This document shows, in pieces, positions 24,124-27,608 of a stretch of DNA of 29,356 nucleotides. Within the stretch, counting starts at the first letter, position 1. The number at the start of each line of letters is the position of its first letter. Where the stretch lies: positions 1 through 29,356 of IMG/VR virus record IMGVR_UViG_3300049893_000819, one strand, 5' to 3'. Origin of the DNA: a virus. Made by a program: the position numbers and the translations under genes. The notes under the pieces were generated by a model. It ran no database searches, had not been told where the DNA came from, and saw nothing but the letters and a program-made list of their open reading frames with translations.

Positions 24124-24933
24124 ATGTTTGATTTTGACAAAGAAGAGACAACCACATTAGCGGAGAGACTGAGTTTGTTAGTAGCTGGCCCCTCTGGGGC
24201 TGGAAAGAGCCATCTGCTCGGGACTCATCCAGGAAAAACCCTTTATTTAACTTGTGGTGCCGAGATTCACGGGATTGATTCAGCTAAGAAGTCCTCCAAA
24301 AATATCCGCGCTATTCGTATTGACGCAAATGCTGAGGGGCCACTTTCCCCTGACCAGGCCCTTGCGCGCCTAGAACAAGCACTTAACCCTGCCGCTGTTA
24401 AACAAGCAGGCTTTCAATTCCTTGTAATTGACGGCCTTACTGAATTGGAGAAACTAGTACGTGAAACAACCAAGTGGAAAAAATATTGCGAAACTAAGAA
24501 CGGGGGTCATGATAACTTTAAAGAGACGGCGGCGACGATCACGCTTATCAATGATATTCTTAGTAAGCTTCGCAATCTTCAGTTTGATCTCGGCATTGAT
24601 ATTGCCGTTACTTGTATCCTTGATGTGACTGAGAAAAATGCTCGCACTGGAGAAATAGAAGCTGCCAAACCTCGCCTGATGCAGTACGGCGTGGCCGAAA
24701 CGTTAGTTCAGCAATTTGGGGACATTATTGTTATTGGTCAAATGACAAAACCAGACGGCACTACTGGTAGAGCTCTTCAAATGAATACTGAATTAGCCCG
24801 GTCTTCTGTTGACGGAAAGACACAAGAAGTTAAAAAGATATTTGGTATTACTCCTAGATTACAGGGCGTTGTTAACGTCCCGGCATTCATTAAAGCAGAC
24901 TTGGGAGAACTACTAAAACTTAAGGGGCGCTAA
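24124..24933 (+). CDS. Sak4-like RecA-fold ATPase (AAA_24 type)
   Basis: This 269-residue protein has Walker A GPSGAGKS (22-29) and Walker B FLVIDG (99-104), with the layout of the phage AAA_24/Sak4 group. These are short RecA-core proteins that bind single-stranded DNA and support annealing or recombination together with a phage SSB. A polar loop (NARTGEIEAAKPRLMQYGVA) and QFGDIIVIGQM resemble the central strands of that fold. It lacks the N-terminal and C-terminal extensions of bacterial RecA. Its co-occurrence with an SSB-like protein and a Cas4-like nuclease suggests a complete phage recombination set. The ATPase fold is firm; Sak4 identity is likely. Confidence 0.8.
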   Translation: MFDFDKEETTTLAERLSLLVAGPSGAGKSHLLGTHPGKTLYLTCGAEIHGIDSAKKSSKNIRAIRIDANAEGPLSPDQALARLEQALNPAAVKQAGFQFLVIDGLTELEKLVRETTKWKKYCETKNGGHDNFKETAATITLINDILSKLRNLQFDLGIDIAVTCILDVTEKNARTGEIEAAKPRLMQYGVAETLVQQFGDIIVIGQMTKPDGTTGRALQMNTELARSSVDGKTQEVKKIFGITPRLQGVVNVPAFIKADLGELLKLKGR

Positions 24934-24934
24934 T

Positions 24935-26065
24935 ATGATTATAGCGATAGATTTAGAGACGATAAACGGAGACGGCAAGTCCGATTTTCGTTGGTGGAAG
25001 CCAGGGTTTAAGATCCAATCTATCGCCCTTTCATGGCGGGACCAGGGAGAAATCGTCTCCTGGTTCTCCTGCGAGTCCGCGGAGATCGATGCGGTAATTA
25101 AGCGATTGCACGAAAAACAACATCCCCTTATCGTACAAAATCTGTCTTTTGAAATGGGGGTTCTTAACACTCTTTACCCGCAATACCCATTAAATTGGCA
25201 TGCAGATACCATGAGACTGGCCCAGCTATGGGATAACGGCGGAGATTGGCGGGATCAAAAGTTTAATGGGGACGAACTAGACGAAGAGAACTCCCCAGAA
25301 CTAGGGATTTCCCTTGAGGCTATCGCGTCTAGGATACTGCAGAAAGACTTTCACAAACATAAAGAACAGAGGGACTCATATCTTAGATCAGTTGGAGTAC
25401 GTAGTAACTTCGGGGGGCATATCCACCTACTCCCCCCGGATATACTTCGCGAGTATAATATCGCCGATACTGTTGTAACTTTAGAAATTTTCGATGCTTT
25501 AACCCCTAAATTATCCGCAATATGGGAGAAAGACTGGGAATTATATAAGACTAGAGTTTTTCACATGAATTCTGCGTATAGACGAGGAATTGTGGTTGAT
25601 TCTAATAAGTTATGGGGCGTTATACAGATAATAGATGCAGAAATCGATAATATTGATGCGGATTTTAGAGAAAAATACTACATTCCCTTAGAAAAATGGG
25701 CAAAAACATTCAATAAAGACCCAAAATCCTTTAATATCTCCTCCACCAAGCAATTATCACAATTATTCATACAGGTTATGGGACTAACAGCTCAACATAC
25801 AACTAAAAAAGGGGAGGAACTGATCAAAAAGAAGGAAATTACCTTTGGAGAGGCGTGCATAAAATACCCAAGTTTAGCCACTAAACACCTTGAAGACTAC
25901 GGAGAGGCCGGGAAACATCTAAAACTACGTAAAAAGCGGCTCCTAGTATTAAGTCAAGCCCTCAGCGCATACGAAATGGCAAAACAGGGTAACGGACGAG
26001 CTCATCCAGAGATTAAGGCATCGGGGACTCGTACAAATAGGGTATCTGGAGGCACATATGAGTGA
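24935..26065 (+). CDS. Family A DNA polymerase, N-terminal half (exonuclease and thumb)
   Basis: This 376-residue protein holds the 3'-5' proofreading exonuclease: D6-x-E8 (IAIDLET), the second motif N69-x-x-F-E73 (QNLSFEMGVL, with Glu where Asp is usual), and Y174-x3-D178 (YNIADTV). A helical thumb region follows (~200-360). It ends just after the polymerase T motif GTRTNRVSG (364-372), before the palm. The palm and fingers are in the next gene, in the +1 frame, overlapping by 8 bases. Proofreading therefore appears intact while synthesis needs the partner polypeptide, or a frameshift. Combined length of the halves, 673 residues, equals a normal phage PolA. Confidence 0.88.
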   Translation: MIIAIDLETINGDGKSDFRWWKPGFKIQSIALSWRDQGEIVSWFSCESAEIDAVIKRLHEKQHPLIVQNLSFEMGVLNTLYPQYPLNWHADTMRLAQLWDNGGDWRDQKFNGDELDEENSPELGISLEAIASRILQKDFHKHKEQRDSYLRSVGVRSNFGGHIHLLPPDILREYNIADTVVTLEIFDALTPKLSAIWEKDWELYKTRVFHMNSAYRRGIVVDSNKLWGVIQIIDAEIDNIDADFREKYYIPLEKWAKTFNKDPKSFNISSTKQLSQLFIQVMGLTAQHTTKKGEELIKKKEITFGEACIKYPSLATKHLEDYGEAGKHLKLRKKRLLVLSQALSAYEMAKQGNGRAHPEIKASGTRTNRVSGGTYE

Positions 26066-26951
26066 TAGGATTGATAAATTCTACGAAAAAGTGGCCAAGG
26101 GGAAGTCCCTAAATATTAATTTACCCGCACTAGCCCGACGTGACGTGCAATTTATGCAATGTTTTTTGGCTGATCCAGGTTGTACATTCGTGTCTCAGGA
26201 TGTGGTTTCTCTTGAGCCGTCGGTCACCGCGCATTTTACACAAGATCCTAATTATCGTTGGGCTACTGTTGACGGTATTGGCAAGACCCCATATATACGA
26301 AATTCCGTATTAATGATTGACGATATCTATTTAATGACGGCTAGTGTGCTCCCTCCGACGCGCCTAGCCATACAGGAGGCATGGGATAATGGGGTATTTA
26401 CCACTTGGAATCAGGATTCTGAGGCGGTTAAGAAGGCGCTTAAGAAGCCGAGGGCGTTCGCAAAGACGGCGGCACTGGGTCTGGGCTACGGAATGGGAGC
26501 AAAAAAGCTCCAAACTTCGTGCGCAGAGGCCGGTTTCCCTATTGATTACAAAGAAGCTAAGCAAGTAAAAGAGATGTACTGGCAGCTTTTTAGCGGCCTA
26601 AGCAGGTTTAAAGAGACGTTAGAACATCGAATTAACGTCGATGGTGCGATTGTTAACCCCTTCTGGTACCGGATAACCCCTGAGCCCCACAAAGCATTTA
26701 ATGCATATATTCAATCTACTGCGTCCGGGGTATTGGATCTGTATTTAGCCATATTAATGAGCAATTACCCAATGATGCACCTAGTAGCTATTATTCATGA
26801 CGAATTAATATATCAGTGCCCAGATGATTTAATTAAAGATCTGCCAAAAATAACCGATAAATGTTCTAGTGAGTTGAACGACACCTTGAAATGGTCAGTC
26901 CCAATTCGCTTTGGTACAGTAACCTGTAAAACCTTTGAGGATTTCAAATGA
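26058..26951 (+). CDS. Family A DNA polymerase, C-terminal half (palm and fingers)
   Basis: This 297-residue protein begins MSDRIDKFYEKVAKGKSLNI then NLPALARR, matching the N-x-P segment that follows the T motif. Motif A is FVSQDVVSLEPSV with catalytic D48. Motif B fits R-x3-K-x7-YG exactly (R132, K136, Y144-G145). A region AFNAYIQSTASGVL matches the helix before motif C, which is IIHDELIYQ (H247-D248-E249). All synthesis residues are here. The ATG has GGAGG 5 bases upstream, formed by the Gly-Gly codons of the first half, so independent initiation is likely. Its stop overlaps the next gene as ATGA. Confidence 0.88.
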   Translation: MSDRIDKFYEKVAKGKSLNINLPALARRDVQFMQCFLADPGCTFVSQDVVSLEPSVTAHFTQDPNYRWATVDGIGKTPYIRNSVLMIDDIYLMTASVLPPTRLAIQEAWDNGVFTTWNQDSEAVKKALKKPRAFAKTAALGLGYGMGAKKLQTSCAEAGFPIDYKEAKQVKEMYWQLFSGLSRFKETLEHRINVDGAIVNPFWYRITPEPHKAFNAYIQSTASGVLDLYLAILMSNYPMMHLVAIIHDELIYQCPDDLIKDLPKITDKCSSELNDTLKWSVPIRFGTVTCKTFEDFK

Positions 26952-27202
26952 AACCATCTAGTGAAATTGTCAACCATGTTCGAAAGCTAGCAAAAAGAGG
27001 AACAAACGCTAAACTTTTAGAAGCACTTGACCGAATATATATAGCAGGAATGGAAGAGGGAATGCGGAAACTTAGTAAACAACTTAAGGAGCGTATAAAT
27101 GCTATCCAAAGCCCTGATAATAGCGCTAGTGTTGACGGAGAGCAACAACAACCCAATAGCAGTAAGCCCACAGAAGGCAGTGGGACTAACTCAGATAACT
27201 GA
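26948..27202 (+). CDS. Small protein after the polymerase, unknown
   Basis: This 84-residue product starts in an ATGA overlap with the polymerase stop, with AGGA upstream. The first ~55 residues form a basic helical domain (EIVNHVRKLAKRGTNAKLLE, then IAGMEEGMRKLSKQLKERIN). The last 30 are Ser/Gln/Asn-rich and disordered, and this part overlaps the lytic gene in another frame. The helical part may bind nucleic acid or the polymerase. No family is recognised. Confidence 0.6.
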   Translation: MKPSSEIVNHVRKLAKRGTNAKLLEALDRIYIAGMEEGMRKLSKQLKERINAIQSPDNSASVDGEQQQPNSSKPTEGSGTNSDN

Positions 27203-27608
27203 GATAGGAATCCAAGAAGTTCAACAACAATATGGTTTTACTGAGGATGTAAACATATTTAGCCCGGAGGTAAACGTAAAATATGGGATACTCTTATTGC
27301 ACTACTATTATTCAATTACCCGTAGTATCACTGAGGCCCTTATTTTATATAATTCGGGCTATGCTGGGCTACGCCGGTATCGCATGGGGGGCCTTAATGC
27401 CCTCCCCCAAGAGACCCAAAAATACGTTCCTAAAGTTTTGTCTATTGCTCGTAGTCATGTCACAATGTACGACGCAATCCTCCCAGAAAAACCTGGAGAT
27501 CTTGACACCCTCGTATCCAATGCCTTTGACGACTTGTATGGATTTGGCATGGGATCTACGCCAGTACTATGGAGACCGGTCGTGCAAGATACTTTATCAA
27601 ATAACTAA
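27099..27608 (+). CDS. SLT-type lytic transglycosylase (endolysin candidate)
   Basis: This 169-residue protein cleaves peptidoglycan between MurNAc and GlcNAc. Catalytic E14 lies in ALVLTESNNNPIAVSP, followed by AVGLTQIT (27-34), a helix with SPEVNVKYG (55-63), LYNSGYAGLRRY (83-94) and QKYVPKVL (107-114), all standard SLT family features. The domain starts at once, with no signal peptide, so export would need a holin. The ~50-residue C-terminal tail is unassigned. AAGGAG lies 7 bases from the ATG. It overlaps the previous gene by 104 bases and a further reading frame at its end. A virion-associated role is less likely, as it is in the replication arm. Confidence 0.85.
   Translation: MLSKALIIALVLTESNNNPIAVSPQKAVGLTQITEIGIQEVQQQYGFTEDVNIFSPEVNVKYGILLLHYYYSITRSITEALILYNSGYAGLRRYRMGGLNALPQETQKYVPKVLSIARSHVTMYDAILPEKPGDLDTLVSNAFDDLYGFGMGSTPVLWRPVVQDTLSNN

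Follow-up and report, generated by a model that had tools for sequence, protein, structure and literature searches.

The window, that is, the whole 29,356-base stretch of DNA analyzed here, is an IMG/VR record with genes for a terminase, a portal or head-tail connector, and a major head protein. Judged from its sequence, the source is a tailed phage, and the connector match suggests that it is probably a short-tailed one. In this record, a family A DNA polymerase (PolA) is encoded by two overlapping genes, one for an N-terminal (N) chain and one for a C-terminal (C) chain (Table 1). The N open reading frame (ORF) ends in GTRTNRVSG-G-T-Y-E-TGA, its frame reading GTRTNRVSGGTYE-TGA, so the translation bears out the initial annotation, which had the gene stopping four codons after GTRTNRVSG. 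The C gene lies in the +1 frame relative to the N gene, and its ATG at 26058 is the first ATG, GTG, or TTG of that frame past the stop at 25950. The strong ribosome-binding site claimed for this gene is also present. GGAGG stands 5 nt before the ATG, has an anti-Shine–Dalgarno (anti-SD) dG of -9.3 (top 2.9% of the background), and can be seen in the sequence to be formed, as had been proposed, from the conserved Gly-Gly codons of the N gene.

Equivalents of the upstream AAA_24/Sak4-like gene were recognized by eye in the related records L002, L003, L006, L008, and L030. In L003 and L006, an HNH_3 gene is wedged between this ATPase-like gene and the N half, directly upstream of the latter. Soon after the polymerase, at 27099-27608 of the window, comes a lytic transglycosylase (SLT) gene that overlaps an 84-aa ORF, and an SLT-like gene is found by eye at the corresponding place in L003 and L006.

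Table 1. Features of the two-gene polymerase locus in the window, followed by the junctions in the records with the same split.
Feature	Position	Strand	Basis, note, or records
AAA_24/Sak4-like ATPase gene, 1 nt upstream of N gene	24124..24933	+	family match
PolA N chain, 376 aa: 3'-5' exonuclease domain, thumb, first palm strand with GTRTNR	24935..26065	+	ORF, translation
Exo I, D6-x-E8	24950..24958	+	invariant in N-half alignment
Exo II, N69-x-x-F-E73 (NLSFE), Glu replacing the usual Asp	25139..25153	+	N-half alignment
Exo III, Y174-x-x-x-D178	25454..25468	+	invariant in N-half alignment
GTRTNRVSGG palm motif closing the N chain; split just past Gly-Gly	26024..26053	+	N-half alignment
GGAGG ribosome-binding site of C gene	26048..26052	+	formed by N-gene Gly-Gly codons (GGA GGC)
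8-nt overlap of N gene end and C gene start (ATGAGTGA)	26058..26065	+	same overlap size in L006, L002
PolA C chain, 297 aa: remaining palm, fingers, motifs A, B, C	26058..26951	+	ORF, PF00476
C-chain N-terminal helix, about residues 3-13	26064..26096	+	alignment, predicted helix 3-13
Motif A, D48-VVSL-E53	26199..26216	+	D48, E53 invariant (alignment)
Motif B, R132...K136...L140...Y144	26451..26489	+	all four invariant (alignment)
Motif C, H247-D248-E249	26796..26804	+	invariant (alignment)
Junction, 8-nt overlap			window, L006, L002
Junction, 4-nt ATGA overlap			L003, L005
Junction, 1-nt gap			L008
Junction, halves 490 nt apart, HNH_3 gene between			L004
Junction, halves 568 nt apart, HNH-like gene between (by eye; no Pfam match)			L017
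Junction, halves 2328 nt apart, ParB-like and PAPS-reductase/DUF3440 genes between	L018:2663-5008		L018

In Pfam, the N chain matches PF01612 (DNA_pol_A_exo1) and, weakly, the first part of PF00476 (DNA_pol_A), which the C chain matches at 4.4e-17. The N half covers profile positions 20-122 of PF00476 and the C half positions 130-377, and both halves match the phrog_17 DNA polymerase. In the Protein Data Bank (PDB), the N chain matches the Pol I of phage G20c over 390 profile positions, and the C chain also has Pol I matches. Near the end of the N chain, all aligned N halves share G364, T365, R369, G372, and G373. A profile of the N half can be aligned with Klenow up to about residue 670 (E. 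coli numbering, with an assumed offset), and the GTxTxR of the N chain corresponds to the Thr664-Arg668 palm stretch there, from which we take the roles of its residues. An alignment reaching this far places the break inside the palm, past the Thr664-Arg668 strand and ahead of the NLQN segment.

The initial annotation had described motifs A, B, and C as intact. This holds for D48 and E53, for R132, K136, and Y144, and for H247, D248, and E249, all of which are kept, but not for the Ser of motif A or Leu140 of motif B. Motif A reads DVVSLEPS in the window as against DYSQIELR in Pol I, with Ser replacing Arg. The Glu-Pro of EPS, in place of ELR, is found throughout the clade, single-chain members included, and the motif B aromatic residue (Klenow Phe762) is Leu140 in the window. 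In the aligned N halves, the Exo II Glu (NxxFE) occurs in nearly the whole clade, the single-chain L013 among them, and Asp occurs only in L008. The change from Asp to Glu73 leaves the proofreading strength of the N chain uncertain. Since L013 shows the same departures in Exo II and motif A, they are not damage from the split. In line with the view that both halves look undamaged, both frames are open and conserved, and the catalytic residues are invariant apart from clade-wide changes.

Relatives were collected by scanning IMG/VR viral contigs for records encoding both halves, at about 32-66% identity. Finding N-half relatives required alignments, as a single-sequence N-half scan of the viral contigs was unproductive. 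In a phage protein collection, the N half had no match, and the matches of the C half, at about 28% identity, were all to distantly related phage polymerases, most of them from mycobacteriophages; a scan of genome contigs gave nothing useful. The search of relatives, which the initial annotation had named as a check, recovered the same Gly-Gly split in L002, L003, L004, L005, L006/L007, L008, L017, and L018. Besides the window, seven further lineages in IMG/VR (eight records) are counted as split, and the same position is broken in nine records with eight distinct sequences; the split is kept down to about 32-36% identity.

A sequencing or assembly indel in an ordinary single gene is one alternative, as a one-base change would unite the frames in the window. 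This is extremely unlikely given that separate metagenomes yielded eight distinct sequences with the split, one of them identical in two assemblies (L006 and L007, over 4.5 kb), and that three split relatives carry inserted genes. The first of the two genes inserted in L018 has its start on the GGAGG site of the N gene and overlaps the N stop, and the second one overlaps at its end with the C gene; this order is unlike that of a chimeric assembly. We take the ParB-like and PAPS-reductase/DUF3440 pair to resemble IbrB/IbrA.

Programmed +1 frameshifting at GAG-TGA would yield a fused full-length polymerase with or without a short N product. A +1 offset of the frames is indeed seen in the window, L002, L006, and L008, and the split polymerase of cyanophage S-TIP37 is annotated as "frameshift in, or split protein." However, the relation between the frames is +1, +2, or 0 across the clade, with L003 and L005 in another frame, and whole genes lie between the halves in L004, L017, and L018. 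Moreover, different codons precede the stop (TAT GAG TGA, CAT GAG TAG, AAT GCC TAA), and the C genes retain strong SD sequences and start codons. Frameshifting is therefore improbable. As a general cause, a conserved frameshift and the indel, both raised as alternatives in the initial annotation, and also decay are excluded by the varied frames, the inserted genes, and the recurrence of the split.

The anti-SD pairing energy averages -8.83 over nine distinct C-gene starts, compared to -2.69 for background ATG/GTG codons, and none of 20000 random draws had a mean as low. Such strong pairing, at a split that recurs at the same position, is far from chance. Compared to single-chain relatives, the N chains end 1-5 residues past Gly-Gly, and the first residue of the C chains is 3 to about 31 residues ahead of a conserved Asn. 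In the short C chains (L004, L005, L008, L017, and L018), the start codon is three or four residues before this Asn, so no conserved segment has been lost. A longer C-chain start with the extra predicted N-terminal helix is present only in the window, L006, L002, and L003, among which Ile5 and Lys11 are invariant, and is absent from single-chain relatives. No Rfam intron match was found in the loci searched, and there is no intein at the junctions, where the N-chain ends and C-chain starts leave no room for one.

Split genes are often pseudogenes, and the pair could represent a polymerase gene that is decaying and will be lost. This is very improbable because the frames are open, the catalytic residues are invariant across lineages only 32-38% identical, and silent differences far exceed amino-acid changes in both halves. 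Between the window and L006, for example, pN is 0.30 for the N half and 0.25 for the C half, and pS is about 0.8; these are raw values, as silent sites are saturated, which bars a dN/dS ratio for most pairs. The N and C distance matrices correlate with r of 0.78, a value that none of 5000 permutations reached. Both halves are conserved and co-inherited. The proposal of a two-subunit polymerase rather than decay, a frameshift, or an indel is well supported by the relatives that keep the split, three of which have their halves separated by whole genes. A search of 12 records, which are mostly fragments, turned up neither a second family A polymerase nor one of family C, and a PF03175 (PolB) search of the same 12, run without a working positive control, was empty. 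Because most records are fragments, a second polymerase could lie beyond their ends.

The claim that proofreading and synthesis are on separate chains proved too simple, since the thumb and GTxTxR are also on the N chain and synthesis should therefore need both chains. The same feature bears on the idea that the genes encode two independent enzymes, with a proofreading nuclease and a minimal polymerase each acting outside any single complex. It is true that all of the exonuclease belongs to the N chain and that AlphaFold2 (AF2) folds the C chain by itself, with a pLDDT of 87.1 and a pTM of 0.76. Yet a nuclease that keeps the thumb and the palm arginine motif, a cut that crosses the palm rather than following a domain border, and two chains that evolve together leave this idea with only a slight chance of being right.

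In a joined model, the frames were fused by reading TATG as one Tyr, and AF2 was run on an alignment of the halves and L013. The model has a pLDDT of 85.8 and a pTM of 0.80, with residues 364-376, at the join, forming the longest low-confidence stretch and having the lowest confidence. It matches the Pol I of phage G20c, Bst, Taq, and Klenow (PDB best E 4e-20), with a TM of about 0.73-0.76 normalized to the Bst and Taq fragments. As modeled, the joined sequence is a complete exonuclease-thumb-palm-fingers Pol I fold. Being one artificial chain, the model speaks to whether the halves fit, that is, to compatibility, and not to binding of the free chains.

In all likelihood, each of the two ORFs of the window is a gene of its own, and the pair encodes a two-chain family A polymerase of a tailed phage, with the palm common to both chains. 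From the sequence and the models, the chains very probably must associate into one working polymerase. Ribosomes would finish the N chain, and the C chain would start at its own ATG from the SD sequence inside the Gly-Gly codons; the overlapping stop and start suggest that translation is probably coupled. The cut would fall in a palm loop, between the GTxTxR strand and the LNxQ/LNLP segment before motif A. The chains would then associate non-covalently into one normal Pol I fold, with the N chain supplying proofreading, the thumb, and the GTxTxR arginine and the C chain supplying the fingers and motifs A, B, and C, so that the synthetic site is built from both.

Not all relatives are split. 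L013/L014 (735 aa) and L104 are unbroken at the split point (...TGRYAGGGGANIQALGRRD..., ...TGRMAGGGGLNVQGLSRRE...), as are distant phage PolA genes at 20-35% identity where the point is readable. The initial annotation had named a single continuous frame in close relatives as grounds for refutation; within the clade, L013 and L104 are single-chain at this point and L030 is ambiguous. In L030:3947-5864, one base separates the frames of the halves, the C half has a single plausible start, a GTG within the Gly-Gly codons, and the N half stops in CTTAAC. L030 may be newly split, contain a frameshift site, or reflect a sequencing error and was left out of the split count. The best tree places L013 and L104, both single-chain, among the split members. 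With L104 included, grouping the nine split rows in a single clade is not rejected (p-AU 0.237); in an earlier tree lacking L104, p-AU was 0.059 when L030 was omitted and 0.0005 when it was treated as split. On these trees, the history may have been one split followed by re-fusion or several separate splits.

The split probably arose by gene fission at Gly-Gly codons that already resembled a ribosome site, and the split point also accepts inserted genes (HNH, ParB/PAPS-reductase-like). The first break may possibly have come from an inserted homing endonuclease, intein loss, or a plain frameshift. Homing endonucleases favor essential replication genes (PMC2988022), and this preference fits the HNH or HNH-like genes that four of the eight split lineages (L003, L004, L006, and L017) have within or next to the locus; most junctions, the window's included, have no endonuclease gene. 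A distant single-chain phage PolA, L015:4230-7313, has an N-terminal uracil-DNA glycosylase domain and a 158-aa intein at residues 576-733 (TFRS|C...HN|SANAPNVQ; PF14890, TIGR01443), within about three residues of the equivalent of the window's split point. With an intein so near, intein loss, as proposed for archaeal PolB3 (PMC4104785), is a possible origin. More tentatively, and with less than an even chance of being right as a whole, the polymerase may be an obligate two-subunit enzyme with a palm common to two chains that is old in the clade, in which a chain-joining helix evolved in one sub-lineage, the split point docks mobile or cargo genes, and L013 and L104 were re-fused.

Family A polymerases are textbook single-chain enzymes. 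Split phage polymerases are already known, and it is the break site after the palm Gly-Gly that is apparently new, no report of a break at this site having been found in the open-access literature; nor was any found there of family A halves separated by recognizable unrelated genes. In Aeromonas phages 25 and 44RR, a phage replicative polymerase is likewise in two genes, gp43A and gp43B. According to PMC2988022 (citing Petrov et al. 2010), the phage 25 chains, a split family B polymerase, co-purify and are active, and a homing endonuclease gene is at the split. They differ from the present pair in family, fold, and break, and the present clade has mostly directly overlapping genes. The same paper cites NrdA (ribonucleotide reductase) of phage Aeh1, an essential gene split by a homing endonuclease, whose two chains make up an active enzyme; this is another enzyme, and the window's junction is without an endonuclease. 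In Methanobacteriales, PolB3 is likewise a replicative polymerase kept as two polypeptides, split by gene fission that is proposed to have followed intein loss (PMC4104785). PolB3 is an archaeal family B enzyme, whereas here an intein near the equivalent site is found only in the distant L015.

Closer comparisons come from family A itself. The OM43 phages MEP401 and MEP402 have a PolA in two genes, gp13 and gp15, with a small ORF between them (PMC10580990; OP830906). As in the window, the exonuclease, thumb, and first part of the palm are on chain 1 and motifs A, B, and C on chain 2, but MEP401 is cut about 20 residues later, after the NLQN segment and just before motif A. Since MEP401 is by sequence another PolA lineage and the ORF between its genes is uncharacterized, its split is probably an independent event. 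The T7-like cyanophages P-SSP7 (ORF17; PMC3350473) and S-TIP37 (17A/17B) likewise have a family A polymerase in two overlapping ORFs. S-TIP37 and its relatives are cut at the exonuclease/thumb border, whereas the window is cut inside the palm, and so it is in S-TIP37 that proofreading and synthesis are truly on separate chains. This type of split, a separate exonuclease ORF overlapping a thumb-palm-fingers ORF, is seen in relatives of the T7-like cyanophage type, namely L045:3586-5375, L055, L064, L067, L081:3033-4792, and S-TIP37 (L105:698-2472).

A clade with one palm cut, and with the two genes 2.3 kb apart in one genome, offers a natural test of how an active site is assembled from two proteins. 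The Gly-Gly codons of a conserved motif, doubling as a ribosome-binding site, provide a simple possible route to gene fission. Since overlapping, inserted-gene, and single-chain members all exist, the order of events (split, endonuclease, intein loss, and re-fusion) is testable. Annotation pipelines that expect one PolA ORF may label such genes as truncated.
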